From: Rusavskia elegans
Taxonomy: Eukaryota > Ascomycota > Lecanoromycetes > Teloschistales > Teloschistaceae
DNA length: 64,000 nucleotides
Assembly (NCBI GenBank): GCA_011316305.1
Contig: SAUG01000052.1
Span: forward strand, 434,001 to 498,000
Direction of reading: 5' to 3'
Shown here in pieces: positions 15,514-54,558 of this stretch (within the stretch, counting starts at the first letter, position 1; every line of letters begins with the position of its first letter). Position numbers and translations under genes: made by a program. Under the pieces are notes generated by a model, which worked only from the letters and a program-made list of their open reading frames with translations, had not been told where the DNA came from and ran no database searches.

Positions 15514-15518
15514 CTGCG

Positions 15519-18667: not shown

Positions 18668-19133
18668 CTATCTCCTTTGCAACGTCTCGTCTCTGCTTCT
18701 CAATCTGCAACGCATCAAAGGACAAGGAGCGCCCCTGAAAAGCAGAGGCTGCCAACCAGAATCCACCATTTCCTCGTACAAGCCAAAAAGGTTACCCCAC
18801 ATTCGCTCCACGTCTTTCCAATACGCTGAATTCTCCATGACCAGGGATCCCGGAACAGAATCGGTAGATCTTTCGTGCAGAAGCTTAAGAACCTACGCGA
18901 CTTTGCCACCAAATTGCGAAAGCGTTGATTGATCGTTGTTATGGTTTGAGCAGATTGTTTGCAGGCTCTGTGGTGAAGTGTTGGGGCAACGCCAGTATTC
19001 GAATGTTGTGATTGGTGTGTGACGTATTTAAGCTATTGTCCGCGATCCATTTTTTCGATAGACTAAACACAGTATACGAGATAATCACCGTTTTCGTGAT
19101 TTGATCCTCATGCATGGTCGAGTCTGTAGCCAT
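18668..19133 (-). pseudogene. Broken member of the small two-exon 'SKHF' family
   Basis: The start MATDSTMHEDQITK is like the first exons of its relatives, and VFSLSKKW matches the family's second-exon opening. Further on, NQRFRNLVAKSRRFL matches the central QRF block, and YWKDVERMWGNLFGLYEEM matches the Trp-anchored coiled coil. These pieces fall in different frames and are separated by stops near 18940 and 18890, so at least one frameshift and two nonsense changes have occurred. Relatives lie at 19504, 20216 and 47071-52401. I infer a dead gene copy; no function is known. Confidence 0.5.
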
Positions 19134-19503
19134 CTTGGGTCAGCCAGAGATATAAAGTTGAGAGAGATATAAGGGAGGGAAATGTGATTGAGGAGAGAAG
19201 TTACTTATCTACTAGACTTCAAAACTGGCAAAGTCTGATGAAAAGGGAACAGTGTTACTATCTGCTCGGTAGCTGTAGTGGTTGATTATTCTGATAATCA
19301 ATAATATTGAACACCACAACAATATGTCTCCGATTTGGTCGTTATCTAATCCGATGCTCTGAAGTCGTGGTGTCGACTTCTCGTTTGAAGCCAATAATGA
19401 ATTCATTCATGATGTCATCTGCGCCTTCAACCTCCTGATTTGATCCGGTGCAGAAGAAGCCAATTACAACATACGTTCCTTGATCCCTGAACCTTTATAC
19501 ATC
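19134..19503. other. Intergenic between divergent family members
   Basis: 370 bases between the broken minus-strand copy and the plus-strand member. It presumably holds both promoters. No repeat or other gene recognised. Confidence 0.4.
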
Positions 19504-19893
19504 ATGAGTCCGTGGAAAGAGGTCGGGAGCTAAGCTTCCCTAGTATACACTTTACAACACGCTGATCTGTCTCAGGTCTTCCAGTCAAAGCATTTCAGCT
19601 ACACGCTCGAAGTTCCACGTCTCATAGTCACCTACCATTGCCAGACCTGCGAGCGCGACTTTGCAGAGTCACAGCGCTACTACAAGAATCGCCATGCCCT
19701 CCAAGGGTTGGCAAACCTGCTACAGCAACAAGGGACCAGAGTAGACAATGCCGAGCAAGATGATGATATGAAGAAGCTTTGGGAGAAGGAAATGGCAAAT
19801 TTGGAGACCAAAGCTGGAGAGTTGGTCGAGGAAATGAAGGGGATTGAAAGGGATATTGAGTGCTCCTCGAAAAAGAAGCGACATCGAAGCTAG
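19504..19893 (+). CDS. Small two-exon 'SKHF' family protein with a CxxC pair, 111 aa
   Basis: Exon 1 is 19504-19521 (MSPWKE) and exon 2 is 19576-19893, with a 54-nt phase-0 intron. The donor GTCGGG is weak, so exon 1 is the least certain part. Exon 2 opens VFQSKHFSYTLEV, then YHCQTCERDFAESQRYY, and ends with a charged coiled coil (LWEKEMANLETKAGELVEEM) and a basic tail (KKKRHRS). The block CxxCExDFxESQR is shared closely with the member at 47071-47637. There is no signal peptide or membrane helix, so it is probably intracellular. I do not recognise the family and assign no function. The gene is convergent with the next member at 20216. Confidence 0.6.
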
Positions 19894-20215
19894 GGTTTGA
19901 AGGTCATCATTGGCGTGAAGTCCATGGGTCAATTGAGATGGCTCTTCGTCGTCGGAGAGAAAGCGGATTCTACGACAAGGAAAGGTCATGTATGAATAGT
20001 CCGGATCTCCAAAACTTGACGAGAAGAATCTCATGGTTTTGTGAATTCTAGTGGGAGAACAAATTCATTTCCTAAAAACTTTTGAATATCCGGCTGACCG
20101 ACCATTACCACGGATTTCCCCTTCCTACTCTGCTCGAATATCCGTAGCTCCACAGCCTCCCCTGATCCGACATGAAGATCTCGATTCCGTCCAGCAATGT
20201 ACCACCTCCATTATC
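19894..20215. other. Intergenic between convergent family members
   Basis: This 322-base stretch separates the stop codons of two convergent small-family genes. I see no additional feature. Confidence 0.5.
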
Positions 20216-20629
20216 CTAAGGCATCCAACTAGCCTGCACTTCCAGCTTATGATGTTCCCTGAGCGGGCCCTCTACCTTTCGCTTGACCGACCTCATATTC
20301 TGCACCCACAGCTTCATAGCATCATCGTGTTCACTCGCGTGATCCTGGGTTTTTGTCACTGCGCCGAGTCGGTCCCACAGGTCATGAATGGCTTTTCGGT
20401 CGGAGTAGAATCGCTGTTTTTCCTGAGTATCGAATTGATGGAGGATTTGGTCGCTCCAAGATGTGTAGTATGGTGTGTGCTCTGGACCGAAAGAGGGTCG
20501 GGTGTAGAATTTGTAGGTGAAGTGCTTCGAGGAGAGGATCTGTGTAAATCATTAGTACTACCCTGGTCTTTTGCATTTTGCGTACAGCAATGCCAACGGC
20601 GGACGTACGTGATTTGGCTCGTCTGCCAT
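20216..20629 (-). CDS. Small two-exon 'SKHF' family protein, 114 aa
   Basis: Exon 1 is 20609-20629 (MADEPNH) and exon 2 is 20216-20539. The 69-nt intron (GTACGT...TACACAG) is phase 0. Exon 2 opens ILSSKHFTYKFYTRPS, has the central block TQEKQRFYSDRKAIHDLWDR, and ends with the Trp-anchored helix AMKLWVQNMRSVKRKVEGPL. It lacks the CxxC pair seen in the 19504 and 47071 members. There is no signal peptide or membrane helix. The splice sites are good, the layout is the same as in the other members and the frame is open, which together support a real gene. Function unknown. Confidence 0.68.
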
Positions 20630-21443
20630 TTTTGTAGTTGGAAGTGTTGTTTTCTGAGGTTTCTCAAGTAGACTGAAGGTGGTGGATACAGTTTGGAAGG
20701 AGTGTATTTATAGAGAGGCATTTTTGGGAAAGACAAAGAGATGTGAAAATGTTGACTCGATGTGTAATGAATCTTTTTTGAGCATCACTTAAGAAAAAAT
20801 GATGACAGATTGTAAATTTCAATGAAAATCATGCTACACTTTTTTCTCTCCCAGAGTTCTAAGCTCCATTCCGAACCCATTTGAACAGATAGAATAGTTT
20901 TGATCGAGCACCTTGCGAGCGTCACTTCCTATGGTCATAGATGCAACCAGTTGTGATTACCTCTGCAACTACTTCCTGACAAGTCTACTGAATTTACAAA
21001 CTGTTATATTTTTGTTGGTAGGCGTAAACTCACCAGCGCTTGTACATATTGGTATAGGAGTAATAGAGCCAAAGGTGCAGTGGGAAAGGAGATAGGTATT
21101 ATTTGCCACGCTCTGAGGAGGATTATCTTCATTTTCAGGTTGCAGCCCTTATTAGGATGAAGGCAAGCTGCTTCTAGATATGTAGGCTAAGTACTTTGAT
21201 TGAGCGAACAGATGCTAGCGACATGGGAGAAGGTGTACTTTTTTGTTTTGAATAGGACGACCTCTAATGATCCTTCTGAATCTGAATATCAAAGATCAAT
21301 CATGTTTGCAGAAACTTATCACTCGAATGCCACCGGCCTTTAGAAAACCATAAAACCATAGAATATTTCCACTTAGCAGGTATTTACCCAGTGTTTAAGA
21401 AATCCCACACCCTTATCACCTCCATAGTTCTCTTTGATCGGTT
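20630..21443. other. 0.8 kb without a supported gene
   Basis: The first part is probably the promoter of the 20216-20629 gene. The rest has no recognisable product; composition is somewhat AT-rich but not RIP-like. Confidence 0.5.
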
Positions 21444-21915
21444 CTAGATTATATCTTCAACAACAGAAGTCTCCTTTTCATCGATCGTTGGCTCGTCATC
21501 GTTGGACGACTCTTCGACACCCGCAAGGAATTCACTTGCTTTCTCTACAATACCATCCACTTCTCGAAGATATGGGGCCATTTTCCACCTGAGGTTTTCC
21601 ACCCCTTGACACCAATCGGTCGCCGACGCTGTCATGGACATCATGTCTGGAGTGGGAGGGATCTTTGTACGGTTGAGTAGCTGAGAGCAATGTTTGGCGA
21701 GTGCGTGATGGTTGGCCTTAAATCGCTGGACTTCTTTGATATCATATCAGTCAGAGCTGAACCAGGATGGGTCGTAAGGTGGGCGGCCATAGGACTTGTG
21801 ATGGAGTTTTTGGTGATGAAAAATTAGATCTTCTTTTAGTATACATGCAGTCTTTTCACTCTGTCAATGCCAAAGCGTACGTAAACTGGTGCATCAGGAC
21901 GCCAGGCTTCAGCAG
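21444..21915 (-). pseudogene. Broken member of the small two-exon 'SKHF' family
   Basis: An exon-1-like piece ends DAPVY with a GTACGC donor at 21880. The exon-2 region reads FFITKN, then after a one-base frame change HHKSYGRPPYDPSWFSSD, a TGA stop, and YDIKEVQRFKANHHALAKHC. An open C-terminus of about 66 codons follows (WKMAPYLREVDGIVEKA). The order and motifs match the intact member at 20216-20629, including the EVQRF block. No ATG is visible for exon 1. A frameshift and a stop indicate a dead copy. Confidence 0.5.
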
Positions 21916-22265
21916 GTATTACCAGAACCGATACTAGAGGCTCTTTCACTTCCAAGGTAGGCGGTCAAGAGGAAGATTGGGGTAGCTGGAATTTTATGGC
22001 TATCAGGGGGATTTGATAGAGTTTCTGAGTTGAGTCGGCTGGTGATCGAAAAAAGACCGGGAAGTGGGTGGACAAGAACATGTCCTCTGAAAAATTTGTA
22101 AGTCAGTACAACAACAATGGAATGATCACGGTACCGACAGATCTCTCTGTATTAATAGAGATTATCGGTTTCCTCAGATCAATATCTTGCTGAAGCTTTC
22201 TTTTATCGTGACCGTGGCGGGTGCAAGAAGGCTACAATCACTTTGGTACGTATCAATACCTCCCG
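21916..22265. other. Short intergenic stretch
   Basis: 350 bases between the broken copy and the open frame that ends at 22266. No repeat or coding feature recognised. Confidence 0.4.
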
Positions 22266-22605
22266 TTACAATTCATTGGACTTGACAATAGAGTATTCCA
22301 TTTCCACTCCATGGTATATTAAAACACTCCCCACCACTTCAAACAATCCATTAATTCGTCTTCGCAGTCTTGCCTGCTTCTCCTGCCAATTGTCCCTGGA
22401 AACCTTCCTTCCTTTTCTAAATACATGAGCTCTCGATAACGACCTCCTGCTGGCGCAGCAGTGTATGTACACGCAAAAGAGCTCTCTTCCAAGCGCATCT
22501 GACCTTGCCTTCATGAATATCTCGTTTCGTAGACTTCGTAATGATATCAGCTGGGTGGCAGTACTGTATAGCTCAGCGCGTTTTCTCAAATAGCTGTAAA
22601 GATAC
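22266..22605 (-). pseudogene. Distal half of an open frame split by the 24-kb transposon nest
   Basis: Deleting the nest and one TGCTC copy makes the minus-strand frame at 47070-46910 continue in phase into 22605-22266. The result is about 166 codons without a stop, directly downstream and in frame with the TAA of the small-family gene at 47071. This half includes RKRAELYSTATQLISLRS. No known domain is recognised. It may be an old 3' part of that gene, an unrelated gene, or chance. Confidence 0.35.
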
Positions 22606-22610
22606 TGCTC

Positions 22611-22834
22611 TGTCAGTATATAGAAGCGATTATAAAGTATTTATAGAGAAGCCAGTTGATATTTCTCGCTAAAATTTACTAAAATTATATATATCTACTC
22701 TAAAAAATTTAGTATAGTTCTAAATAGGTTTAATATTTTTTTAGTACTAACTACTTTTTATATAAACTAGTTTTCTATAGATTTTTATTTTATTATTAAT
22801 TAATTATTATATAATTTCTTCCTACCGACTAATA
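22611..22834 (+). repeat. 5' LTR of element 2, RIP-mutated
   Basis: 224 nt, beginning TGTCAGTATATAG. It differs from the unmutated solo LTR mainly by C-to-T and G-to-A changes. Confidence 0.95.
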
Positions 22835-24187
22835 ATTATAAGCTCGGTTATATATATTTTTATATTTATAATTATTTAAACATTATTTAAATAATTATTT
22901 ATAATATAATAAAGTTTTAGAAAACTCTACCGTAGACCTTTTAATAAATTATTTAATTAATTAAATCTATTAAAAAGGAATTTATATTTTATTAGAAAAT
23001 TTTCTTTTTCTTTAATATATTTATTTAAAAATTTAAAATAAATAAACGCGAGCTAAAGTTCGATAAAGCTAAAAATTAAAATATCTAGATTTCTATAGTT
23101 AGAAATAAAGCCGTTAGCTTTCTAGTCTAGAATTTTATTAATTTATTAAAATTAATCAGACTTTAATATATAGCTAGGCTAATAGAATCTAAAATAAATA
23201 TCTAAAAAAATACGGATATAATTATTATAATAATCGCTATATCTATTTATAATACCTATATAAAATGATATAAATTAAAAATAGTTAAATAAAAAAAGAA
23301 TATAATATATTTAATAAAATTATTGAATTTATTTAAAATATAATTACTATATTAAAATATATCTTTATTTCAAAAATTGAAATCTATTTATAGAATTTTC
23401 TATAAACTTTTAAAACTAAATTTATTCTATTAGATTTAGCTAGAACTTTTAAATTTAAATACTATTACGCGAGATTTAAAATAGAAATAATTTTAAAGCA
23501 ATAGATTAAAGTATAAGTTAATAATTAAATATATAGAAATATTTTTATAATTTTATTATAGTAATTAATAAATACGCTTTAGTATTTACTTAGATATATA
23601 AATATATAATCGAAATAAATACTAATAATAAATGTTTTTTTTTAATCTAATAGAAAAGTTTTACTAGTATATTCGCTTTTATAATATTAAAAATTTTTAT
23701 ATAATAGCAATTTATTTAGTATTTTCTATAGATACGCCTAAATAAATTAATAAGAAACTACTATATAACTTTTTATTTTAAAAAAAAATTAATAATCTTT
23801 TAAAAAAAAAAGTATATTTATAATAAGCTAGAATAATATAATAACTACGATTACTTTTATTATAATTAATTTAAAAAACTAGATAAAAATTTAAAACCTA
23901 ATCTAATTATTAAAAAAAAGATAGAAAAGACAATTAAAAATCTATAAATAAAAATAAAAATAAAATAAACTCTAAAAAAAATAAAAGAATAGAAAAAAAA
24001 AAGAATTTTAAAATTTAAAATTTTCCTTTTTTAATATATATAAGATTATAGTACTTTTACTATTTTTTTAAAAATGTTTACTATCGATTATATTTTCTAT
24101 TTATTATAGATTTTCGATAATAGATTAGCTATTAATATCTATAATAATATAATAGAATATAGATTGATAAAAAAAAAGACTATATCG

Positions 24188-24597
24188 TATTACGTCCACG
24201 ATTCCACAGAGGTTCTATAAAGAAATTGGTCAGGCAAGCGAATCTAATTATTTATAGCCGCCTATAGCCGATATAGCCGCTTCTCTAAACGGAACTTTTA
24301 GCAGGCGGCTATTTATCGGCTTTTATAGCTATTTTTACTATATATATCGTTTATTACTCCTATAGATAGTTTCTCTCGTTAGTTATTAATATAATTATTA
24401 AATATATCTCTACTATTTCCTTCTTAATTACTTTATAACGAAAATACCTTATAATATCGCGACCGTACTTCTACGGGTATATAGGATTAGTTACGATAAC
24501 CTATACTAGGACTTCTTTACTATTTAATAGCTCGGACTACGTCTATAGCTATAGCTAGACTCGAGTATAATACCTTCTAATATATATAAATATTATA
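24188..24597 (+). repeat. 5' LTR of element 4
   Basis: 410 nt, LTR family A. The first 60 or so bases are less mutated than the rest. Confidence 0.9.
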
Positions 24598-27124
24598 CTT
24601 TAATAATTTACTATATTAGTTTTATTATCTCGACCTATAGATCGAAGCGATACTATTAAAATAGTAACGCTAAATATCTATAAAAGAGATAAAATATCCT
24701 TAAAACTATAGATTATTTAGATAAATATCTACTTTATATTATATATAAACTAGTTTCTAAACGAAGTAGTTAAAGTTTTATTTATAATATTATATTTAAA
24801 AGAGGCTGCCTTTAATTAGATATAGCTTCGAATAGAAGATTATCTCGATAACTTAAAAGGATAGAGAGAAAATAAAATATTATAGATTTTCTATACTTTC
24901 GGTAATCTTATTATAGCTATAAAAGAAGCCTTCGGAAATAATAATAAAAATAGAATAACGGAAAGGAAACTAATAGTTCTAAAATAATAGAAATCGGTAG
25001 TTATCTATACTATTTAGTTTAGAACGTTAGTTTATAAGATAGACTAGGAAGACTTAGTTCTAAAAGTTTACTTTTATAAAGAACTCTAGATAAAAGTTAA
25101 GAAAACTATAGTAGCGATCGAAAAACTAGACTTATTAGTAAAATTTATTAAATTTACGATAAAGATCGATACTAGGTAGTATAAAATATACTTAGATAAA
25201 CAGGCGTTTAGTAAAATAGGACCTGCTAAAAGAAAGCCTAGAAGAAACCTAATAGAGCTCGATATTACTAAAATTAAAGGATTAAAAACTAAAGTTTATT
25301 ACTTATATAGAAAAACAGGATACTTTAAAAGGAATTACCTAATTAAAAAGGTAACTAAAGTAATTAAATACTTTTTTAAAATAATAGAAAAATTACTTTA
25401 TAAATATATAGTAAAAAGTTAGTTAGCCTACTATAATAATACTTATCCTATCTATCTATTAGATAAAGTAGAGATAGGATATTACTCTAAAGAACTAAAG
25501 AAAGCGCGGGAAATAAAGCTAATAATCGATTTTAAACTATATAAAACCGAAAAACCCCTTATAGTAGTATTTAAAGTTAAAATCGGAGGTTAATAGATAA
25601 TAGCTTTTATAAATAGAAAGGAAGATAATAAAGTTATAAAGGGATTCTATAATAAAATTAAAGGATATTTTTATAGATAGATAATAGAAAATAATAGAAT
25701 CTTCGATATTAAAGTTAAAATAAAAAATAAATTAATTAGAATAATAAATTTTACTATTATCGAAAATTAGAAAAGTTACGTTATCCTAGAAAATAAATAG
25801 AAAAAATTAATTTTAGAAAAACTAATAGAAAAAAGTACTATAGGTAAGAAAATAGAACCGTAAATAAAATATTTTCTAGCCTATAAAAACCTTTTATATA
25901 AAGAAATAGACGTCGTCTCTATAATGAACTACGATAATATTAAAAGATTAGATAAAAGTTTTAAAAAAGGCGGAGAAGTTTAGAATATAAAGGTTTAGAA
26001 AAAGTACTACTACCTTTTTTAGTAACTTACTAAAAAATATAATAAAAGTAAAAAAATAATTTAATAGCTTTAGATAGACTATATTAGAAAAATATACTAA
26101 AATTTAGTTAAAGGTATTAAAATCGAATACTATAAATTAAATTAAATAGACTAGAACGAAAGAATACTAGATTCGATATTTAGTATATAACCGAAAGATA
26201 AAGAGTTCGATTAGTATCCGTCCTCGTTATTATAGGACGAAATAGTCGCTAAAGAATAAAATTTAGTAAAACTATTAGAAGAACCTAAAATAACTTATAA
26301 TATAAATATATAAACCAGTTATAAAAATAAAGGTAAAAGAACTTTTAATTAAATCTTTTTCAGAATCCTACGTTTTCTATAGATTAAAAGAAGTTAAAAT
26401 TTCTTAAAATTTAATCTATATTATCCGAACTAAAACTAGGTATCGATTTAATAGAAGCCTTTTATACGGCTAGTATAAAACTAATAGAAGAGTAGAACGC
26501 GACTAGATTATTAAACTTATTAAGCCGAAATAATACGCGTTACTTTTAAATAATAAAATTACTTTTATATTTATCTAAAACGCGATAATAAATAATAAAA
26601 CGCTTTTATTTATTAAAGAGCCGGCGGAGATCCGATTTCTAGGCTAAATATTTATTACGAATTTTCTTTTCGGAATTAAGAAAAAATTTAATATAATAAT
26701 AAACCTCGGAATATTTATTAAAAATACTAGTAATATTAGAACGGAATTCATTTTTTTTATCTTTAAAACGCTTCCCTGCGAAGGTTAATAAAGTAAAAGA
26801 AATAAAGAATTAATATATAGATAATATTAGATATTAGAAAATTATATAATTTCTAAACCCGAGTATATTTACTATAAATATTACTATTAACCTCGACTTT
26901 ATATTCTTTTAAAAGATTACGGGTATATAGAAAATAAAGAAAAGGTATTATAATTCCTTTTAACTAAATATAATAAAAAGATTTTAAATAATTTCCTTTT
27001 CGAAAACGTATAGTAAAGATATTAAAGGATAATAAAAAAAAAAAAAAAAAGAAAAGGAAAAATACTCTTTTTATATCCCGCAGATAGCTTTCGAGCTAGG
27101 TAAAAAGCGATATAGGAAGGGCTA

Positions 27125-27535
27125 TATTACGTCTACGACTCTATAGAAATTCTATAAAAAAATTAGTTAAATAAACGAATCTAATCGTTTATAGCCGTCT
27201 ATAGCCGATATAGCTGCTTTTCTAGATAGGACTTTTAGTAGGCGGCTACTTATCGGCTCTTATAGCTATTTTTACTATATATATCGCTTATTACTCCTAT
27301 AGATAATTTCTTTCGTTAGTCGTTAATATAATTATTAAATATATTTCTACTATTCTCTTTTTTAATTATTTTATAATAAAGATACTTTATAATATCGCGA
27401 CCGTATCTCTATAGATATATAGAATTAGTCGCGATAATTTATACTAGGATTCCCTTACTATTTAGTAGTTCGGACTACGTCTACGGCTGTAGCTAGGCTC
27501 GAGCGTAACGTCCTTTGATATACAGGGACGTTATA
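27125..27535 (+). repeat. 3' LTR of element 4
   Basis: 411 nt, LTR family A, ending GGGACGTTATA before the duplicated TATCG. Confidence 0.9.
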
Positions 27536-28384: not shown

Positions 28385-28600
28385 TATAGTGGTTAGAATT
28401 TTGAATTATATAAACGGTTTAAAAGATTATAGAATATATATCTGAATTTTATAGTTATATACGAATTCGGATACTAATTAATCCGGGTACTAATCGCGAG
28501 AACGGATATAAAAGCGGGTATAGGCCTAGTATAGAGATATTTATATATATAAATATTTCATTTCTCTATAATTATAGTAAAATTTGTTTAGAATTCTATA
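28385..28600 (+). repeat. 5' LTR of element 3
   Basis: 216 nt. Starts TATAGTGGTTAG (originally TG) and ends AATTCTATA (originally CA). Confidence 0.9.
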
Positions 28601-34179: not shown

Positions 34180-34385
34180 CTATTTTCTACGTTGGTTGAG
34201 TTATCGGTAGAAGGATACGTTATATTGCTAAGCAGATTTGAATTGAAATTCTATAGAAAGAACCGTTATTTACGTTAACTAAACTGGAATATAAATTCTG
34301 CTACCGTATATTCAATGTTGGTATACCAACGCTTGATTTGCTTACCGAACTACTGATTCACCGGGTACTAAAACCAAAACAAATT
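34180..34385 (-). repeat. Dispersed repeat, inverted copy of 47723-47920
   Basis: About 200 bases match the reverse complement of 47723-47920, sharing GGTAAGCAAATCAAGCG, TTGGTATACCA and AATATACGGTAGCAG. It is much less RIP-mutated than the gypsy sequence around it. I see no clear terminal inverted repeat or target duplication, so its type is unknown. Confidence 0.75.
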
Positions 34386-35730
34386 AAATAAATAAATTGA
34401 TTTTCTATAGAATAAAAAATAAATAAATATATAAATAATTTTAAAATAATACTAAAAACGGAATTTTTTACTAGTTTACGAAATCATATTTAGTAAAAAT
34501 TTAACGGCGACTTTAGATACGGTTTTTTATTCTAAAATACGTATAATATATATTCGTTAAACCGAAAGAATTTAAATTAAAAGTTTAGAAAATTAGACCC
34601 GTCTAATATTTTAATATAGAGCTAAAATATAATAGAGCCGCTTTTTATATTATAATTATTATATTTTAAACATAGCTACGCCGAAGTTCAAATAACTATC
34701 TACTACTTTTTAGTTTTAATATATTTACTATCTTCGATAAAGCCGAAGTATCTATTTAAAACTAGAATAATCTTTATTAGTAAAGTCGAGATCTTCGCGT
34801 TCGCGTTTCTTTTTATTCTAGAACCGTTTTATTTAACGTTAAACTACTATATACTATATCTTAAAGGTATATATATAGTAAATCTTATAGCAAGCCGTAT
34901 AGACGTTAATAGGAACAGCCGGTAAAAGTAATATATTTTCTAGATCCGAAAGCGTAGAAAAAAGAAAAAATAATCTCTAAAAAAGCTCGAAGCCGAATTA
35001 AAATTCTAATTAGATATAATCGGTATCTAATAAAAATATATAGTTAAACGAATTTATAGCTTTTAATATATATAATAGAAATCCAGCTAACGAACGACTA
35101 TTAATCTTTTTTCTTTATACTATATTCGTTAACGAGATTTCGGTTTAAATTATAAAAAGTTTATTTTAATATTTAGATCTAATAGAATTATTAATAATAG
35201 ACTAGAAAAATAAAACTAAAAGATCGAAACTTCTATTACCTTGTAGAAAATTCGCCAGAAAAATATTACGGTCTATAATTCGCTTCGATAATAATCGACG
35301 CAGCTATAGTAGAATAAAAGAAAGTAGTAAAAGATTATTGCCTATATAGTTTCTAGTTTTTATACCCGCTCGTTTTCTAGAAAATTACGAAATTTATATC
35401 TATAACGAAAACTTTATATTAACTATAAACTATAATCTATATTTAAAAAAATATAGATATTTACTTTAGTAGTACTTTTATAAATAATTATTATATATAC
35501 CTCCGAATTCCTATCGTATATTTATATAGTATACGAAGGGACGAGTAATATCGCTAGTATAAAAATTATAAAATTTATTCGATTAAATTCTATATAGCTA
35601 AAAGAAAGTTAATTATTAAAAAAAAAACAATTCGTATATATTTTAAAGACGACTTATTTATATAAAAAGGATATTAAACTTTTAAGAATATATAATTTTA
35701 ATAAATCGGTTAAATTTACTAAAAAATTCT

Positions 35731-43735: not shown

Positions 43736-43950
43736 TATAGTAGTTAGAATTCTAGTTATATAAACGATTTAAAAGATTATAGAATATATATCTGGATTTT
43801 ATAGTTATATACGAATTCGGATACTAATTAATTCGATCGTTAATCGCGAAAGCGGGTATAGAAACGGATATAAATCTAGCGTAGAAATATTTATATATAC
43901 AAATATTTTATTTTTCCGTAGTTATAGTAAAATCTGTTTGGAATTCTATA
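43736..43950 (+). repeat. 3' LTR of element 3
   Basis: 215 nt, one base shorter than its partner, directly after the polypurine tract. Confidence 0.9.
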
Positions 43951-46685
43951 TTCGAAATATAAAAACGGAATTCTAATAATAGAAACTAGAGCTATAAAGA
44001 TAGAAGTAAATTTATTTATTTATTTTTAGTTATAGTATATATAAATAGCAGGCTTTCTAATAAATTATACTATAATAAATAAATATAAATAAAAAATTTC
44101 TTTCTAGATAGTAATTATTTATTAGTTAAATTTTAGTTATTTAAAAGCCTATAGATATAAAATATATCTATTTAATAAATTAATTTTTTATAAAAAGGAA
44201 ATAGTATTTTAAATTTGTCTAAAATTTTTTATAGATTATAAAAGAATAAAAAACTATAATATCTAGATATCTAACTAATATAAATTTATCCGGATTCGTA
44301 ATATTACTTTCGACAAAGCTATATTTTATAAATCTAACGAAATTAATATTATATAGTTTAAAAAAAAGCTATTTTTATATTCTATATTTAAAATCTTTTA
44401 TATAAAATCTTTTTATATAATCGAAAATCTTTTATTAGATAGCGATAAAAATAACTATATTATAGTTATTTCTTTAATTTTTTTGACTTTTTCTATTCTA
44501 GTAATTCTAGAATAATTAGAAAAAGGAAAAGAAAAGAAAATATACAAATTTTATCTTTTATTACTAAATCTTTTAACTTTAAAAGATAAAAGTGTTCCTT
44601 CTATAGATAATATCCGGGAAGACTTTTATTATAATAATAAAATTTTAGAAAATATAAAAAAAAATTATATAATTAATAATATATATATTCTAGAAAAACT
44701 AGAAAAATTAAAAAATTTTCTATTAAAAAAACTCGTAAATCTTATCGCTCTAAATATAATAAAGATCTTATTTTATCTAATATAGTAAAACGCTAGCGAA
44801 AGTTAAAAGTAATATTAAAAAAAATAGAATTAGATAAAATAGTAAATAGAATAATCTAATTATTTTATATAGTATTTATAATATTTATCACCGTTTATAT
44901 ATACTATAAAAAGAAGATTTGATTATTCTAGTCTATATAGGCTCTAAGTTTATTATTAATAAAAATCTATCGCGACTAGTTTTCCTTTAAATTAAAAAAC
45001 TGGAATAAAATATTTAAATACCTCTATTATATAGAATTTATAAATACTATAAAATTAGAAATTAAATAGTTTTAAGAAAAGTAGACCTAGCGCGAGATTC
45101 TATATAAATATATAGAAAAAATAGAAAAGATTTCTATTTCTTTTATATAGATTTTTAAATATAAGCTAGATAATTAGAGATTTTTTTTCAAATTTAAAAT
45201 AAGATTTTATACTAGAGAAAATATATAATATACCGAATAGAATATATATATAACTATACTAGCGATATTTATCTTTTAAATTTTTATAGTATTTATTATA
45301 GTATTCGGCCTAGAAATTTATTAGTATAATATTATAAATACTTTCGCTAATAGCGATATAGATAAAGTAATATATATTTAATTTCCGTAAAAATAAAAAG
45401 AATTAAAAATACTATTTCTACTACTATATATATTATATAGATTTAACTAATCTTTTATTTTATAGTTTAATTATCTTTTAAATATATTAAATAACCTAAA
45501 ATTTATTTAAATACTAGAAATAGAATATCTATTTATTATCGAATATATTATACTATTTTGTTTATAGATAATATTACTATTAATTACGAGTAATATAATA
45601 TATATAAAGTAGATAAATTTTAAACTAAATTTTTCGAAGCCTATAAAATATATTATTTAGAAAAAATTAAATAGTTTCTTGAAATTAAAATATTTTATAA
45701 TAAATCTAATTACCTATTTTATCTTTATTAAAAAGGTTATATTAATAAGTTTATTACTAAATTTAATATTAAATTTATAGCTAGATATTCTAGTTCGCTT
45801 TTATTAAATATAGAAATATTAATTGAAAATATAAAATAAATAATATTTTAGTAAATCTACGCCTACTAGTAATATATAGATTTAATTAATTTTATTACTA
45901 TTATAATTTAACCGGATATTATTTTTATAATATTAAAACTTTTAGAATTTATAATTAATTCTACTATAGAATATTAGATTATAGTTAAACAAATATTATA
46001 ATATTTTAGTTATATAAAATACTATACTATTATATATAATATAGTATACAATTTCTATATTATATTTTTCGTTTTTTTTTAGATATTTTATTTACCGATA
46101 ATCCGATAATTTACTATAGTTTTTAAAAATATAGCTTTAAATTATTTAACGGTATTATTAAATAGCGAGTATTTAAATAGAAAACTATTATAATAAATTT
46201 AACGAAAGTAGAACTCCTCGCTATTATAATAATAGCGAAGGAAATTATATAATAAAATAGATTTTTTAGTAAAATTTTATTAGATTCCGGCTATACTATA
46301 TAAATTTAATATAATAATATATAGACTATCCGAATCTCTACAAGTAATAATTTATAGTATATAATAAAGTTCCGCTATATAGATATATATCGTTATTAAC
46401 TCTATTAGAAAATTAAAAATAAAAATATTAATATTAAATAAACTATTTCTATAGAAATTCTAGCTAATAGCTTTATAATATTATAAATAGTTTATTAAAT
46501 TTATCGGATTCTAGAATTATAAATTAAAATTATAGTTAAATTCTATAAAAACGACTATTACTTCTAATATTAAAATACTTCTATAAATTAATTTAAAATC
46601 TTAAATTTAAGAAATAAATAAAATATTAGAAGAGAAATAGTAAAATTATATTGATTATTAATAATATATTAATTTTAAAAGGATA

Positions 46686-46909
46686 TATTAATATATAGAA
46701 GCGATTATAAAATATTTATAGAAAAGTCAGTTAGTATTTTTTTCTAAAACTCGCTAAAGTTATATATATCTATTTTATAAAATTTAACGTAGTCGTAAAT
46801 AGGTTTAGCGTCTCCTTAGTACTAACTACTTTTTATATAAACTAGTTCTCTATAAATTTTTACTCTATTATCAATTAATTATTACGTGACTCCTTCCTGC
46901 CGGCTGACA
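46686..46909 (+). repeat. 3' LTR of element 2, RIP fading out at its right end
   Basis: 224 nt. The left part is saturated with transitions. The last 40 or so bases (ATTACGTGACTCCTTCCTGC...) equal the unmutated solo LTR, ending GCTGACA. Confidence 0.95.
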
Positions 46910-47070
46910 TGCTCCCATCTCGATTTGAGGGAAAAACAGATCGATGAAAAGAAATGCGTCTTCTGGTAGGTGTCTCGGCGTTGAAGATTATCCGGCTGTC
47001 GAATCTTGGGAAACAACCAGGAGAGGGAGGATAGATTTGGGTCTTGAGTGGTTGGAGCATCGAGTAGCAC

Positions 47071-47637
47071 TTAAAGTATGCTATTAGGTAACTCAGCTGC
47101 CGAGGGTGCATCTCTCTTGAATCTGGCAAGCTCTTCAGACTGTAAAGAAGCATCGAGGCATTCTCCACTCCCTTCTTCGGCTTCTGCTCTAAGAACGCGC
47201 AATTCAAGCTCAAACAGCTCTACCACCCAGTCGCCGGATTTTCTCTTCAGATTGACCATCTCCGATTTCCATTGAGCACACCAACCAACATGAACCTTTT
47301 CTGGGCCTCCAGGCATCTGTGTTACTCGGAGGAACTGGGACCGTAGATTTTCAAGAGCGGTCCTCCACGCGCGATGGCGCTGGGATTCAAGGAAGTCGAG
47401 TTCGCAATTTTTGCAATGGTTGACGGTTGAACAGGTGTAGCAGTAGTTGTAGTGGAAGGTCTCTGAGCAGAAGGTCTGTTATCTCTATGTCAGTTACCAT
47501 CTGGATGGTCGAAGGGAATAGAATCTAACATATTTTGGGATACGCTTTGGTGCTGAATCCGGCGGTGCCACTGTCGGTGTTGCGATGGTCAAGATTCTGG
47601 GGGAACCTTCTGGTGCTGAGTGCGACAATGTCGACAT
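47071..47637 (-). CDS. Small two-exon 'SKHF' family protein with two CxxC pairs, 170 aa
   Basis: Exon 1 is 47530-47637 (36 codons) and exon 2 is 47071-47475, with a 54-nt phase-0 intron (GTTAGA...ATAACAG). Exon 1 looks like a doubled family exon 1: SAPEGSPR, then APPDSAPKRIPKY. Exon 2 opens TFCSETFHYNYCYTC, then CKNCELDFLESQRHR, giving CxxC-x5-CxxC, which could bind zinc (inference). A Trp-rich charged helix follows (WCAQWKSEMVNLKRK). It is the closest relative of the member at 19504-19893. The frame stays open past its TAA stop across the transposon insertion site. There is no signal peptide or membrane helix. Function unknown. Confidence 0.65.
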
Positions 47638-48289
47638 CACTGTTGCGAGAGCGGGGGGATGCTGCTCAATGAATATGCAAGTGACAAATAAGATTTGTTG
47701 TCTGTACTTGGTTTATTTTTGGTTTTAGTTTTGGTTTTGGTTTTGGTGCTCGGTGAACCAGTGGTTCGGTAAGCAAATCAAGCGTTGGTATACCAGCATC
47801 GAATATACGGTAGCAGAACTGGTACCCCAGTTCACTTAACGCAAATAACGGTTCCTTAGAATTTTAATTCATGTCTGCTCAGCAATATAACGTATTCTCC
47901 TACCAATAATACAACGTAGAAATTTTTATAGATATGTATCCCTCGCAGTCATTGCTTCTTCTCACTTCTTCTTCTTTCACCAGCAACACCTGATGTCTGT
48001 ACACAAAACCTCGGGTAAGGAATTCACTGCTCGACAGATTGCATCTAGAAATTTGGTTTGGTAGAATAATTGTTGAAGATAGATTGTTATTGAGAATGAC
48101 TGCAACTCCTGATTTCCATACCCCTGACGTGACGTAAAAGGTGTTTGGGAATGGCAACAGTAGTTGATCGTTCGATAAGCACTTGTATCTGGGCAAAAAA
48201 TGCTGATGTGATATGCATGACCAGGCAAAGACGAAAATGAAATAGGTCACGATCGCCGGAAGGAAATTGAAAGCCGCCCTTCAGATTTC
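47638..48289. other. Intergenic, contains a dispersed repeat
   Basis: 650 bases between two minus-strand family members. It contains the repeat at 47723-47920; the rest shows open frames on the minus strand (47900-48250) with no recognisable domain. Confidence 0.5.
47723..47920 (+). repeat. Dispersed repeat, unmutated copy; starts with a GGTTTT microsatellite
   Basis: Matches the reverse complement of 34180-34385. It begins with several GGTTTT units (about 47720-47746), then CGGTGAACCAGTGGTTCGG and TTGGTATACCAGC, and ends near ACAACGTAG. It keeps CpA and TpG. Class of element unknown. Confidence 0.75.
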
Positions 48290-48761
48290 CTATTGTGCGC
48301 CTGCCTCCTCAACGTAGCCAGGAGGAGTCCAAAGCAACCCAGGATTTATCCCAAGATTCTTGAACATCTCTCTGTTGTCTGCAATCCTGACCCTCGTTTC
48401 AAGATCTTCCATCTCCTTCTGCCAATCCGAGACTTTGCTCCACAGTCTTGACATCTCCCATTGCCAGAGATAATATGGAGCCCTATAGATTTCCCCGGCG
48501 CGCTCGTAAGCCTGGTCGCTGTGCAAAATGATCGAATGTATGTCGCGGAGTGCTTTTCCCCACGTGTCAAAACGCCGAGCTTCCGGGGAGTCGCTTGTAT
48601 ACCAATCGCTGAAGCTGGGGGACCAAGGGAAGAAGTCGTAGGAGAAGTTTTTGGAACGGAAGACCTTTCAGCAACGTTAGCTATCATGTAGGTGGTATGT
48701 GAGAATGGACGCTGACATGTTTAGGGGCACCTTCTGGTGCGGAGCCTTGTGGTGTGGCCAT
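48290..48761 (-). CDS. Small two-exon 'SKHF' family protein, 139 aa
   Basis: Exon 1 is 48717-48761 (MATPQGSAPEGAPKH) and exon 2 is 48290-48664. The 52-nt intron (GTCAGC...CTGAAAG) is phase 0. Exon 2 opens VFRSKNFSYDFFPWSP, has the central block SPEARRFDTWGKALRDI, then the coiled coil WQWEMSRLWSKVSDWQKEME, and ends in a Pro/Gly tail. It keeps all family landmarks but not the CxxC pairs. There is no signal peptide or membrane helix. I do not recognise the family. Confidence 0.7.
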
Positions 48762-50060
48762 TATTGTTGCGGGAGTCGAGGATGCCGAAAGATAAATCTC
48801 TAAGCGTAAGATGTGGTATGATCTTTGTATTTGTATCTGGTGATTTCTGTTGATTGCAGGTGAAGACGTTATGGGATGTTGTTTATTCACAGACCATTCA
48901 CCCACTGACTGTATCTGAAGATATGCAATGGTAAACATAAGTGCATTTGAAAAGATGTTAGACACTGATCGTCAAGTAGACTCCCCCTGCAGGCGCCATC
49001 ATCGCTATTGGTCATGTCTTACCTAGATATACGTGTTGAGGCTTCCCCGAATAATCGAACAAGTGCATCTGTATACCGTGTCAGTATTTATCAACTGAAA
49101 AGTCCTGTGACTGGCTAATTGTCTGACTGTATCCGGAAGAGGGTCCGGACGCTTCCGAGGGTGCCGTTAATGCGTCCGTATGTGCCTGTGATGCTCCCAA
49201 GGGTGGCTGTGCTGCGGCCATGGTAGATATACAGCGCAACTAAAACTTGTGGCAGATCATCCTATTGAGTTTCAATTCACGGATATATTGACCCTTGGTC
49301 TTGTAGTACGTCCACACCCAAGTCGAGGTATCGATTTCTAGGCTCAAAAGCAAAGTAGATAAATCATCATATTTCTATGGAGGGTCTATTTTGGTTTGGC
49401 TTTCCCCGGAGAGTAAAGACTTATCATAAGTATTACTCTTCTTGATTTGCTATGTTAGTACAACCAAGATTTCCATTAGCTGTATCAACCAACCCTCCAG
49501 CGAATTGCTAATGCCATCAAAGGACAAATTCGGTACCTCGTAATTTACGGTCTAGTGTGTTTTGCCTTCATCTCCTCAGGGTTAGACTTTTGTTCCTTGA
49601 GATTGTAGCAAAGGGACATGATGGACGTATATTTTGGATTTCGGGGGTGGACTGCAGCTGCTGAAAGACCACTCGTCGCTGAGATACCCATCTGACGAGA
49701 GGAGCACTGGAAAATGACTAGATGTCGAGCAGACCCGGGCTCAGAATAGTATAGACCCCCTCGGTTGGAAACACTGGCCTTGTAGTCGCCGTCATGAGCG
49801 CGAAAGGGACAAAGCATTGGAAACGACCGAATTTGAAGAGCGTGAAGAAGTCACTGGGACGAGGTACGGATTGACATATTTGTTGACAGCGCTTTTGGTG
49901 ACGATTCTAGCCGAGTCGAGCTCTAAAAGAAAGTATGCCCATTTGTACTTAGCGACAGACAGGACGACCTAGAGCGTTGGGGTATGAATTGGTGTGCCAG
50001 ACTTCTTCGGACATCCATCGCCTTTGTTCATTGCCAATTCCACGACCTAGAGTGTTACTG
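48762..50060. other. 1.3 kb without a supported gene; possible orphan first exon
   Basis: A minus-strand ATG at 49223 opens MAAAQPPLGASQAHTDAL followed by APSEASGP, close in style to family first exons, but no second exon with the SKHF motif follows. It may be a truncated copy. The frame at 49545-49817 has no recognisable domain. Confidence 0.4.
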
Positions 50061-50500
50061 TCAAGTTCTCATCTCCACCCAACAGGCTGTTCTGATAGCC
50101 TTCTCGATCTCTTCAATCTCTCCTTGCATGACGTTGACCTTGTCCAATAGTCCCGCTACTTCCCTTTGCCAGCTGGACAGATGTGTACTGAACCTGATGT
50201 CGTGAAGCAATTGTTCGGAGGCGACACCCTTCATCTCGAGTTGAGATGACATTGAATCCAGACCCGCGGAGTAAGCGTACAAGCGGCGGTTTTCCTTACT
50301 GTCGCGGTCGCGGTAAGGGTCACCTGGGTGAGGATCCCAGAAGTTGGTAAGAGAGTAATGCTCGAAAGTGAAATGCTTTGTAATGAAGACCTGGAAAATG
50401 TAAGCGAGTCGAAGTCGGAGGAGTGTCTCGGTAGTGTGAGGATATGTACATATCTGGGAGCCTCTAAAGGCGCCTCAGCCGGTGCTGATGCTGTGGCCAT
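50061..50500 (-). CDS. Small two-exon 'SKHF' family protein, 126 aa
   Basis: Exon 1 is 50450-50500 (MATASAPAEAPLEAPRY) and exon 2 is 50061-50390, with a 59-nt phase-0 intron (GTACAT...TTCCAG). Exon 2 opens VFITKHFTFEHYSLTNFW, has the central block SKENRRLYAYSAGLDSM, and ends with WQREVAGLLDKVNVMQGEIE, a predicted coiled coil. It has no Cys pairs, signal peptide or membrane helix. It lies head to tail with the members at 50804 and 51968. Function unknown. Confidence 0.7.
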
Positions 50501-50803
50501 ATTGACGCAACAGGACCTCAGGGGAGGATGTATGGGGCTTTTCGACGAGTTGCCGGAAGGGGGGAAAGTAAGTGGATCTTCATGCCACCCACACGTGACT
50601 ATCTAGAAAATTCAACAGTATATTAATTTCAGAGCGGGTGATCGCCAAGCAAATCGGAAGAGTCACTATGTGAGGGTAATCTACTGATAAAACATCGATC
50701 GAGCCTCTCAATGTGACGATTATTTACCATAGTGATCCATCACTTACTTGCAATGGTCTTGCTTGGACTCCTTTCCCAGTCAAATTCAAGAGATGAAGCC
50801 CAA
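50501..50803. other. Intergenic between family members
   Basis: About 300 bases, presumably the promoter of the 50061 member and the 3' region of the 50804 member. No other feature seen. Confidence 0.5.
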
Positions 50804-51226
50804 TCATCTCCACCCCGCGCTGATACGTTTCGCCACCCTCATCTTGCCGGCGATATCGTCAAGCTCCTGCAGGAAAGTTCCAATCTTCTTCTCAAGTCCT
50901 ACCATATTCTCTTCCCACTTCGTCACGGCAGCTTTGTCAACCTCTGTCGATAAAACTATTCGGGGGCTACGGCGAATCTGGCTACATGAATTCTCAAGGG
51001 CGTTGTATGCGGCGTCGAAACGTTGAGTCTCAATGTAGTCGGGATTATCGTGATCGTAGCGGTAGTAAGGCACGAATTTGGGTTCTATGAAAGCGAAAGA
51101 AAAATGGTCGGTGTGAAAGTTCTAAATGCCATGTTAGCTTTATGGGTTTTTGTGGGATCACGTGAAGATTGAAGGCTGAAATAGGTCGGTTTACGCCACC
51201 GGCGATGGCGTTGGCAATCGAGTCAT
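50804..51226 (-). CDS. Small 'SKHF' family protein, first exon uncertain
   Basis: Exon 2 (50804-51121) is clear. It opens NFHTDHFSFAFIEPKF, has the central block YIETQRFDAAYNALEN, and ends with VTKWEENMVGLEKKIGTFLQ. Exon 1 is unsure. One option is 51200-51226 (MTRLPTPSP) with a poor donor GTGGCG. The other has a better donor, GTAAAC at 51194, but its reading starts with ATT where relatives have ATG. If the second is right, the start codon has been lost and the copy is dead. Landmarks and open frame of exon 2 otherwise look sound. Function unknown. Confidence 0.5.
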
Positions 51227-51967
51227 TCTGGGAAAGTATATCTCGAATCCCTGGCCAATCTGATCATATTGAACAGCTGCTCCGTACACGCCTACAGTGG
51301 AGGTGTTCGGATCCAATGACATCATTACTTGGCATCCCTGACCGGTCTAGTGCTACCCCTGAATTGCCCCCTTTTCCACATTCAATGCCCGAGGGACCTG
51401 TTCCCCATCGATCGATCCACACCCCCCAAAATACTATGTTTTGATTTAGCTGTCCTCGAACTCTATCGATAGAGCTCCCCAGTGCTGCTGCCAAAAACAA
51501 GTTCTGTAGCAAGACGTTGCGGCTCGATAAACCCTTCTCTAAGCTTTGCTCTTCCCGTAGGGTAATTGCTGGCAAGGGACACAGAGGGATGATCCTAGAT
51601 AGGGGTCGTATACTGAGCAAATAAGCGGACAATGCAGTGACCTATACGTAAACAGATAAAAAAAATACTTGGGCTTACAAGCAGCCAGTACCCGATTCTA
51701 TTCTGGGACGTTTGGTAAGTTGTGAGTCTGGAGTTAAAGTATGGTTCAGTAGCCATGGAATGCAATAGATCTCAACAGCATTTCGATTGGAAACACGCCA
51801 GGGTAATGGCCTATACTGCGTGCGATGAGAAGGGTTTGAAGGCCTCTGGACTTGAGTCCAAATATTCATATGGTCAACCACGGATTTCTTGGCCCAGGAT
51901 GACCTCTTAGTGGTCCAATTATCTCAATCTTCTCCTCCGAGAAGTATCTTTCGCTCCTTTCCGTGCT
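51227..51967. other. 0.74 kb without a supported gene
   Basis: Open frames on both strands at 51264-51910 have no recognisable domain or family landmark. It probably contains the promoter of the 50804 member and the 3' region of the next gene. Confidence 0.5.
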
Positions 51968-52401
51968 TTATTCGGCAATCCACCGACCACTGATGATTAT
52001 CGATCCTTCATCGGCAAGTTGTGCCACTCTCCTTGCCATCTCCTTCGTCTCTTCCAGTAAGTCCTCCATTTTCTCTCGGAGCACATGAATCTCCTTACAG
52101 AAAGCCCTAGACTCGCTCTTATACAACTCGGCCTGTATAGATAGCTTCTGGGAGTCTGATCTGCGCTGGACTAAGCTCCCAATCAAGTCTCCCAGAGATA
52201 TCATCCAGAGCCCATCAAGGTGTTGTCCGAGCCATCTAACGTCGCGTCCCCGGTTTTCAATGGCCATGTATTTGAAAGCGAGATGTTTGGTGCGCAAGAC
52301 CTAGACGCAGACGAGGTCAGCAGAGTTCTCTATCACGCGCTGAAATGTCTACTGACATGCACGGGAAGCTCTATCTTCTCGTCAATGGTTTCCGTTGCCA
52401 T
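51968..52401 (-). CDS. Small two-exon 'SKHF' family protein, 125 aa
   Basis: Exon 1 is 52357-52401 (MATETIDEKIELPVH) and exon 2 is 51968-52300, with a 56-nt phase-0 intron (GTCAGT...GCGTCTAG). Exon 2 opens VLRTKHLAFKYMAIEN, a variant of the family motif with Leu for Phe, and ends in a long charged helix (CKEIHVLREKMEDLLEETKE). It is the most divergent intact member and lacks an obvious QRF block. There is no signal peptide or membrane helix. The first exon and intron placement match the other members closely. Function unknown. Confidence 0.66.
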
Positions 52402-52510
52402 GATGGAAATGATAGCTGAAGACTGCACAGGTGATTAGGAGTTGGTCGCCTTGGTGAGGAAGATAGTTGGATGTGGACAGGTGATTGGGAATTGTAAGTT
52501 GAAAAGCTGT

Positions 52511-53878
52511 TCAGGGCTTGCCCACTGCCATTTCTGAATCCGGAGGCGGCCTTATTTCAACATGGATCTTTCCCTTGACTTCTGCATCGAAACGACTCAT
52601 GACCTCGATCCCGAGGAAACACCACTGTGTTGCCTTGAATTGATTGTTGGGAGTTAGAACGTTGGCTTCAGATATCGCTGTTTGGACGTCCTCCTTCTTG
52701 ATATTCGTAATAATGCGCGAGGAGTTTTTGCAAACGTGCCCTTTGATCAATTCTGCTCCATTGGTTTTCCAGAAATCGTCGTATCTAGGCGGAGGCTGAA
52801 GGCCCTTCCTGCAATGCCAAACAAATTCCTTCCATTCGTTGCTATACCACAGATCCTTGCTTCTTAGACTGTCAACAAATGTTTTCTTAACCTGTACCTG
52901 CAACAGCCAGATCTCAGAATACGGACAACGGGTCGCGGCATAGTTGCAGTACTCCTCGGCGGTTTCAAGCTCCAGAGTCCAGTAGTATGCTGGATTGTTC
53001 AGATTGAAATCACCCTTCGCGTACGTACGCAAACCTTCCAGTTGGAGAGACCCGTCGGCAGAAATCCAATCCCCCATCTCAACTGCCGCCTTGCCTTTGT
53101 ATAATGTATAGTGATCTGGCCTATCTACCGGTCGTACTGCTACCGCACTTACATGTGCTTCGGGCAGATTATGACAGGCAGATAGGCCGGGAATGTTAGA
53201 TGTCACTGTAGCTGTACCGGATGGCTGCCAGACTGTTTCGGGTTGGAAGGTTTCCGGATGTTGGACAGACTTCCGCTTCTTCTTTGCGCGGGTGTACACG
53301 GCAGCCGCTTTGAGTCGTTGCTGTAACAAGAGAAGAGTTTCATAGTTGACTTCGATAGTGTTGCGCACCCATGCGGTAATCGATTGTGTTTGCCGTATTT
53401 GCTCAAATCTATCATCCATGATACGATCCTGTATCGCCTGTCCCAGACCCATCTTGCTCATAGCTACCCTTGGTAGCAATTCATCTTCATTCTTTGCGCG
53501 ATTTGTTTCACTTTTCATGTAGTCCAATAGTTCGTCAGGATTGTTCGGAACTGTACGGGAGACAAATCTGGAATATATCTGCTGAGCGGCATCCAAGGTA
53601 AAGCCACAAAATTCGATAGCTGCCACACTTTCACTGTGATCCGGCAGAATGATTGTATTATTTACGGCAGCTAGAGGTTGGAAGCGAACTGATGCCGTTG
53701 CACTTGAAGACGATGATGATGAGTAGTTGGAGCTTAAAGAACCAGCGTGAGAGGATGGGGGGGTAAGAAGTGACGCTGAAACCTTTCTCTTTCCGCCCGA
53801 TAGTTTCTGGACGACAATACGATCTTCTGCAAGGGAGTTTTCATCTTCTGCAGTCAACGACGTATCTAGGGAATCCAT
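52511..53878 (-). CDS. Unrecognised 455-aa protein, single exon
   Basis: An intact single-exon frame starts at the first ATG (MDSLDTSLTAEDENSL). Parts seen: a Ser-rich low-complexity N-terminus (residues about 35-65), a helical region (about 80-200) containing IEFCGFTLDAAQQIYSRF and ending in a basic patch KKKRK that could be a nuclear signal, then a C-terminal domain (about 250-440). That domain has YTLYKGKAAVEMGDW, AYYWTLELETAEEYCNYA and VWHCRKG. I recall similar uncharacterised proteins in other filamentous ascomycetes. The LYKG...YW...A.EY pattern faintly resembles ADP-ribosyltransferase-like folds, a weak inference. The long clean frame makes it a real gene; no function is assigned. Confidence 0.72.
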   Translation of the reverse strand: MDSLDTSLTAEDENSLAEDRIVVQKLSGGKRKVSASLLTPPSSHAGSLSSNYSSSSSSSATASVRFQPLAAVNNTIILPDHSESVAAIEFCGFTLDAAQQIYSRFVSRTVPNNPDELLDYMKSETNRAKNEDELLPRVAMSKMGLGQAIQDRIMDDRFEQIRQTQSITAWVRNTIEVNYETLLLLQQRLKAAAVYTRAKKKRKSVQHPETFQPETVWQPSGTATVTSNIPGLSACHNLPEAHVSAVAVRPVDRPDHYTLYKGKAAVEMGDWISADGSLQLEGLRTYAKGDFNLNNPAYYWTLELETAEEYCNYAATRCPYSEIWLLQVQVKKTFVDSLRSKDLWYSNEWKEFVWHCRKGLQPPPRYDDFWKTNGAELIKGHVCKNSSRIITNIKKEDVQTAISEANVLTPNNQFKATQWCFLGIEVMSRFDAEVKGKIHVEIRPPPDSEMAVGKP

Positions 53879-54120
53879 CTTGACTTTCGTTGACTTGGGG
53901 TATGAGGGAAGTCAAAAACTACAAGTTCGAAGAGTCAAAGTCGAAGATTTAGCCGAGGGAGCGCAATCCCGCGCAATCCCGCACTTTCGCTTCTTGGCGC
54001 CATCTGAAAAGTAAGGTAATTAGAGGGATTTTGCAGGTTTTTTCTAGTCTAATGGAGAAGGGGGCCCACCTCCTACCATGCACTGATCCACTGATCCACT
54101 CCCATTTCTTTCCGTTATTG

Positions 54121-54558
54121 ATGGAAAACAACTCTCAGAATAATGCTACGGCATCAAACCGCATGTCGGAAGCCCCGCAACGCTTTGTAAAAGCCCGATC
54201 ACGTTTAGCTATGACTTTTTTGCTCACCTTGGCACCGTCCCTCGAAACGGAATACTTCTTCGACTGATGGCTGTTCATTGGGAATTCCGTGAAAAATTTC
54301 GTGCTTTCCGTGACGATTGCCCTGGCTGTGCGGCCGACAAGCAAGAATGCATCCCGCTTCTACGCCCACGGCGCTGCTGTCAAGCATCGATGTCTTTAAA
54401 TTTGCCAAAAGCTCAGTCTTCCTGCTGAGTTGCCCATCAATAATTCAATAGAGCGCCTTTGGCAGGAGGAATTAAGGACTCTTTTGCGTATGATGGAGGC
54501 TTGCCTGGAGTACATGAACGATCTTGCAGCAAGCTCTGATGACGATGATAAGTCGTAA
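54121..54558 (+). pseudogene. Probable broken member of the 'SKHF' family
   Basis: One plus-strand frame opens MENNSQNNATASNRMSEAPQ, like family first exons, and ends with ASRFYAHGAAVKHRCL and ERLWQEELRTLLRMMEACLE, matching the central RF[YF] block and the Trp-anchored helix. It contains TGA at 54265 and TAA near 54391, both one transition away from sense codons. The SKHF motif itself is not recognisable and a frame change is possible. It is on the opposite strand to the cluster at 47-52 kb. Confidence 0.4.

Follow-up and report, generated by a model that had tools for sequence, protein, structure and literature searches.

Seven small two-exon genes (w1 to w7) in a 64-kb stretch of contig C169 of Rusavskia elegans belong, as judged by comparison of sequences, to a protein family that is real and old but has as yet no name. 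The 64-kb stretch, hereafter the window, belongs to a genome of 44.16 Mb in 217 contigs. All seven genes were found intact where an earlier note on this DNA had placed them (7/7; w1 on the forward strand, w2 to w7 on the reverse). Profiles built from six of the exon 2 sequences recovered the seventh in 7/7 trials among 1616 open reading frames (ORFs), at E values of 3.7e-18 to 1.3e-9 for six genes and 2.6e-4 for the weakest, exon 2 of w7 (51968-52300).

Members of the family occur on at least five contigs beyond C169, namely C188, C113, C92, C20, and C101. Single-sequence searches of the genome gave few relatives, one of them returning a single weak match besides its query, so profiles were run over fetched stretches; genome-wide member numbers are accordingly lower bounds that cover the window, about 110 kb fetched as larger stretches, and short regions surrounding matches. 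The seven-member profile also scored ORFs on C188, C113, C92, and C20, in stretches flagged by pairwise searches, and the C101 members were reached through a weak pairwise match and a reading of the frames. Profiles that left out one whole contig at a time recovered 23/23 members (the broken copy w8 included) at E ≤ 0.0021, and 22/23 at E ≤ 1.8e-4, among 2682 ORFs. This recovery is conditional on the choice of members outside the window, which was made by pairwise and profile searches and frame reading, and it therefore shows mutual fit rather than an unbiased yield. A profile of the window genes matched one built from eleven members on the other contigs with a probability of 98.3 and E 1.6e-14. 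Among 29,502 shuffled or reversed decoys, scored with the 7- and 21-member profiles rather than with each leave-out profile, none fell below E 1e-3 (best, 0.026). The members find one another above background. Some ORFs classed as non-members scored down to E 3e-7 (L032:6080, L057:2436, L031:643, and L032:5118); they share clusters with members and probably belong to the family as additional or broken copies, and L057:2436-2804 ranks above w7 and w8 when the C169 members are omitted.

Shared coiled-coil composition, rather than descent, might be thought to explain the likeness, given that a PDB sequence search returned weak matches, mostly to coiled coils (best E 0.01), and that few positions are invariant. 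The decoys speak against this, as do the window's own SMC2-like coiled-coil ORFs, none of which scored better than E 2 with the family profiles, and as do a motif and an intron position that lie outside the coiled coil. We reject composition at the level of the family as barely credible; it could yet explain single weak pieces such as that at 54121.

Position of the intron across the family

The splice point was set from the protein motif, with exon 2 starting three codons before a conserved [ST]. Of the 20 members that carry the motif, 19 had an acceptor AG at the expected codon, against 1 of the 16 remaining motif matches from this DNA (Fisher p 4e-8); outside the window the count was 12/13. 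Two broken copies, L041:54-275 and L032:5093-5272, were assigned to the family manually (profile E 0.22 and 1.8), and without them the counts are 17/18 overall and 10/11 outside the window. The table was not blind, the AG having been seen at several sites beforehand. The four C92 members, which the motif expression omits, differ in the motif, yet the acceptor AG could be read off the DNA in all four. Splice positions were located for 18 of 19 members (C101_453 was missed).

The family-wide intron position that the earlier note had suggested is thereby borne out, and most of the named database proteins agree with it. In the Xanthoria proteins P0001 (w1), P0006 (w2), and P0002 (w7), exon 1 joins exon 2 at the same residue. 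At the protein level, an exon-1-like start runs into the motif region at the matching residue in 8 of 9 named database proteins with an N-terminus (P0001, P0002, P0006, P0007, P0008, P0009, P0011, and P0014). A Teloschistales metagenome study (PMC9907504), which may or may not be the source of these entries, drew on Xanthoria parietina expressed sequence tags for its gene prediction.

Relatives and age of the duplications

Protein database searches, which need shared exact five-residue words, gave 18 relatives (P0001 to P0018). Ten are named, all of them from Xanthorioideae lichen fungi of the genera Xanthoria, Calogaya, Polycauliona, Rusavskia, and Flavoplaca; no named relative was found outside Xanthorioideae in these word-based searches, in which 8/18 matches carry no organism. 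P0008 scored E 0.15 and was counted on the strength of its 73% identity to w2 across 60 residues. When each was compared with the nearest of 21 members, w1 was 90% identical to P0001, w2 93% to P0006 (Xanthoria) and 72% to P0007 (Calogaya), and w7 87% to P0002, and w5 and w6 matched proteins for which no organism is given (94% over 72 aa to P0004 and 85% over 89 aa to P0003, respectively). Five of the seven window genes therefore have a relative at 85 to 94% identity. A C113 member is 81% identical to a database relative. The C188 member, single in the stretch seen, is matched in the most genera of all members, with 96% identity over 80 aa in Rusavskia, 73% in Polycauliona, and 65% and 63% in Flavoplaca; across genera, identity spans 63 to 96%. 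The ten named entries are "hypothetical proteins" of this same family, and the records seen give no domain or function. No published account of the family was found in the literature, most subscription papers being outside our coverage, so an annotation may exist.

The window paralogues have no mutual BLASTN similarity at E 0.01. In a tree of 28 rows, from which w8 was dropped and which included 6 of the 18 database proteins, end branches were 1.1 to 2.6 changes per site for paralogues outside C92, 0.2 to 0.8 within C92, and 0 to 0.41 for orthologues. Two C92 paralogue pairs gave ratios of nonsynonymous to synonymous substitution rates (dN/dS) of 0.28 (dS 1.44) and 0.47 (dS 1.07). Taken together, branch lengths, missing BLASTN similarity, and dN/dS suggest that the duplications are old and the proteins constrained, a judgment of relative rather than absolute rate. 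The earlier note had called the family fast-evolving, and a recent amplification or arms race does not agree with the absent BLASTN similarity, with long paralogue against short orthologue branches, or with relatives at 85 to 94% identity.

Local amplification fared better. Contig labels on the tree changed 7 times against a shuffled mean of 10.9, a value as low being reached in 0/200 shuffles, and this clustering beyond the shuffled labels fits old local duplication. Nevertheless, the members are spread over six contigs or more, and the sole supported one-contig clade was C92 (98/99). Since 16 of 25 inner branches are left open and long branches meet, no branching order is drawn from the tree.

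The same data bear on whether the genes are relics of a coiled-coil ORF that a transposon carried through the genome, a reading that was already disfavored and that we consider very improbable. The members are dispersed, several copies are broken, and transposon blocks lie nearby. However, a genome search with w4 DNA found only w4 itself (the DNA of the other genes was compared within the window), the window copies have no DNA similarity to one another, the intron position is fixed, relatives in other genera have open frames, and the gene blocks of the window carry no alteration of the kind left by repeat-induced point mutation (RIP). A transposon ORF was dropped as a candidate on the DNA comparisons.

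Structure of the window genes

Each window gene has an exon 1 of 6 to 36 codons, a phase 0 intron bounded by GT..AG, and an exon 2 of 105 to 134 aa with a stop at its end (7/7); the predicted products are soluble-looking proteins of 111 to 170 residues. On the forward strand, w1 consists of exon 1 (19504-19521, 6 codons), an intron of 54 nt (19522-19575), and exon 2 (19576-19893), which holds an SKHFSY motif and one CxxC (leave-one-out E 3.7e-18). The other six genes are on the reverse strand. Exon 1 of w2 (20609-20629, 7 codons), which has a similar N-terminal peptide in P0006 and P0007, precedes an intron of 69 nt (20540-20608) and exon 2 (20216-20539; E 1.1e-13). In w3, an exon 1 of 36 codons (47530-47637) is followed by an intron of 54 nt (47476-47529) and an exon 2 with seven Cys (47071-47475; E 6.1e-13), and w4 has exon 1 at 48717-48761 (15 codons), an intron of 52 nt at 48665-48716, and exon 2 at 48290-48664 (E 1.5e-15). 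For w5, the corresponding parts are 50450-50500 (17 codons), 50391-50449 (59 nt), and 50061-50390 (E 1.3e-9). The 9 codons of w6 exon 1 (51200-51226), which may instead start at one of the in-frame ATGs farther upstream, lead into an intron of 78 nt with a GTGGCG donor (51122-51199) and exon 2 (50804-51121; E 4.3e-16). Lastly, w7, the most divergent member, has exon 1 at 52357-52401 (15 codons), an intron of 56 nt at 52301-52356, and the exon 2 given above.

Much of the common plan drawn in the earlier note holds, with amendments. Introns are in phase 0 throughout and measure 52 to 78 nt, the longest exceeding the proposed 50 to 70 nt. Exon 1, described as rich in Ala/Pro/Ser/Thr, has these residues at a fraction of 0.53 to 0.67 in four genes but only 0.27 to 0.33 in the other three. 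Exon 2 typically opens x-hydrophobic-x-[ST]-K-[HT]-F-x-[YF]. The middle block, given as [QR]RF, keeps [QR]R, but the next residue may be F, Y, H, or L, and in w7 the block cannot be made out clearly; the Trp said to anchor the coiled coil is present in 6/7 genes, w7 having Phe instead.

Predicted fold and cellular role

The absence of a named domain, as the earlier note had it, agrees with the library searches. Pfam-A searches of the 7 window exon 2s, 16 members, and 8 database relatives gave only weak coiled-coil-like matches (best E 0.0041), which fell below the curated cut-off wherever one was printed (the run on the 16 members printed none). With the prokaryote library NCBIfam, the best match among 10 proteins was E 0.0019, 18.2 bits against a cut-off of 83. 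A C2H2 zinc finger was rejected: CxxC occurs in w1 and w3 only among the seven window members, no His pair follows, and no Pfam zinc-finger match was found.

Structure prediction, also suggested beforehand, gave the same secondary structure in two AlphaFold2 jobs, two strands and then two long helices. The predicted local distance difference test (pLDDT) and predicted template modeling (pTM) scores were 67.0 and 0.34 in the first job and 78.6 and 0.66 in the second. In outline, the predicted fold begins with a beta-hairpin at the splice junction and continues into two long, charged helices. Foldseek returned no match at E ≤ 0.001 for the predicted model, and no solved structure was a significant match.

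A hydropathy scan of nine members, the seven window genes included, found no strongly hydrophobic leader. The scan is crude (Kyte-Doolittle mean over 12 residues within the first 45, with a maximum of 1.14) and used no dedicated predictor; it is consistent with the lack of a signal peptide claimed earlier, and an ordinary secreted effector was dropped as a candidate. Being small, and seen in just a single group of obligate symbionts, the proteins might still leave the hypha by unconventional export and act on the algal partner or other microbes, and 3 to 7 Cys occur in 4 of 23 members (w1, w3, C92_102, and C101_451). We think such export improbable, as no leader appears in the nine members scanned, 19 of the 23 members have 0 to 2 Cys, and the two C92 pairs tested give no sign of diversifying selection.

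The reading that we prefer, and to which we give an even chance, is that these are intracellular helical-hairpin proteins for binding or dimerization, of an unnamed Xanthorioideae family whose old duplicates have been kept by constraint. The family, its intron position, and its conservation across genera come from sequence and the fold outline from prediction, and we infer the place in the cell, the capping, and the binding role. The products would work inside the cell as binding or dimerization modules, the helical hairpin pairing either with a partner or with another copy of itself, under a cap formed by the conserved, aromatic beta-hairpin. Old tandem and dispersed duplicates would then bind different partners.

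Several observations weigh against this reading. One of the 20 motif-bearing members, L057:4340-4696, lacks the AG at the expected position, and the Rusavskia elegans entry P0010 departs from the window family at the exon junction, its model continuing into a stretch that is intron in the C188 gene, which may reflect alternative splicing or a wrong model. Splicing of the window genes is itself predicted, from DNA and protein comparison, and for w3 and w4 (2/7) the 18 database proteins include no close relative. As for the fold, the AlphaFold2 alignments had 14 and 13 rows only, the hairpin residues of the first job had pLDDT of about 51 to 55, and the five models of the second job ranged from 78.6 down to 55.3. 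Fold matches (VIA-align) were to generic antiparallel helical hairpins, among them the SerRS arm, the N-terminal part of Cdc37, the CHMP4B hairpin, and designed hairpins, with no pointer to function. Finally, the dN/dS values are gene-wide means for C92 pairs only, at dS near saturation.

Genomic setting and broken copies

The three broken copies proposed earlier fared unequally. That at 21444-21791 (w8, reverse strand) is an exon 2 region with one in-frame TGA, supported at E 5.8e-10 by a profile lacking w8. The copy at 54121-54558 (forward strand) is a doubtful relic with broken frames and a helix-like piece at 54400-54555 that profiles scored weakly, at E 0.0059 and 0.62. The copy at 18668 was not detected by any profile (below E 10, or E 5 in one search). 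At 49081-49221 (reverse strand), a 46-codon open stretch rich in Ala/Ser/Pro/Thr resembles an exon 1 without a full exon 2 and may be an orphan exon 1, a further relic.

An AT-rich, RIP-altered block at 22500-46900 splits the cluster (G+C fraction 0.19, TpA/ApT 1.24, and (CpA+TpG)/(ApC+GpT) 0.14), and a second at 9500-16000 (0.24 and 1.30 for the first two measures) has a strong RIP signature. Such DNA also lies beside the C188 and C20 members and about 4 to 5 kb from those on C92. This setting, together with the clustering, the broken copies, and the strong divergence of paralogues, speaks for a reading in which the genes serve conflicts inside the cell (as allorecognition, killer, or anti-parasite elements) and diversify next to blocks rich in transposons. 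We nonetheless hold conflict genes to be unlikely. No AT-rich block was present in the stretches fetched around the C113 (10 kb) and C101 members, relatives are kept across genera, and PADLOC matched 2 of 9 proteins, weakly (E 0.0026 and 0.034). The dN/dS of the two C92 pairs also argues against them, although a gene-wide mean can hide selected sites.

Further features lie near the genes. The segment 47724-47922, just upstream of w3, matches 34184-34388 in the AT-rich block in inverted orientation at 83%, and is probably a piece of a repeat. Adjoining w7 is a 466-aa ORF (52511-53911, reverse strand) with no Pfam match at E 0.001. Pfam identified other neighbors as an SMC hinge/SMC_N protein, read as SMC2-like (2554-4662, reverse), an amino-acid permease (6260-7297, reverse), a DEP-RGS protein (57949-59859, forward), and an M3 peptidase (61101-63209, forward). 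On C101, at about 450 to 451 kb (L056:8098-9308), there are two more members about 0.5 kb apart, one of which carries seven Cys, with five in the loop that precedes the first helix, a pattern reminiscent of w3. One C92 member forms the end of a 257-aa open frame (L026:5640-6410) that could represent either two genes or one longer gene; its upstream part matched no Pfam family at E 0.001. Near the C188 member, a 451-aa open frame (L029:8646-9998) has the look of a valyl-tRNA synthetase, judged from the letters alone.

Implications and comparison with known families

What makes a lichen might be sought among the genes specific to its fungi, few of which are defined well enough to test. For this family there are now a profile to search with, an intron position that is diagnostic, relatives from five named genera, and an outline of the predicted fold, and expression in thallus versus culture, presence outside Xanthorioideae, and partners can be tested directly. 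As a long shot, beyond the binding or dimerization role preferred above, the family may have arisen among lichen fungi on the line that led to Xanthorioideae and reached at least six genome places. It would have its own fold type, in which a beta-hairpin starting at an exon junction sits on a helical hairpin, with the widely kept C188 member as its core and the clustered members as specialized partners in building or keeping the lichen thallus. The case also shows that divergent genes clustered next to a transposon block are not necessarily young.

Lineage-specific clustered gene families near RIP-altered transposons are a kind known from filamentous fungi. The window family differs from them in its old duplicates, in having no signal peptide, and in that some members, in the stretches seen, lie away from AT-rich blocks; it resembles them in its clusters, its relics, and, at part of its places, an AT-rich neighborhood.

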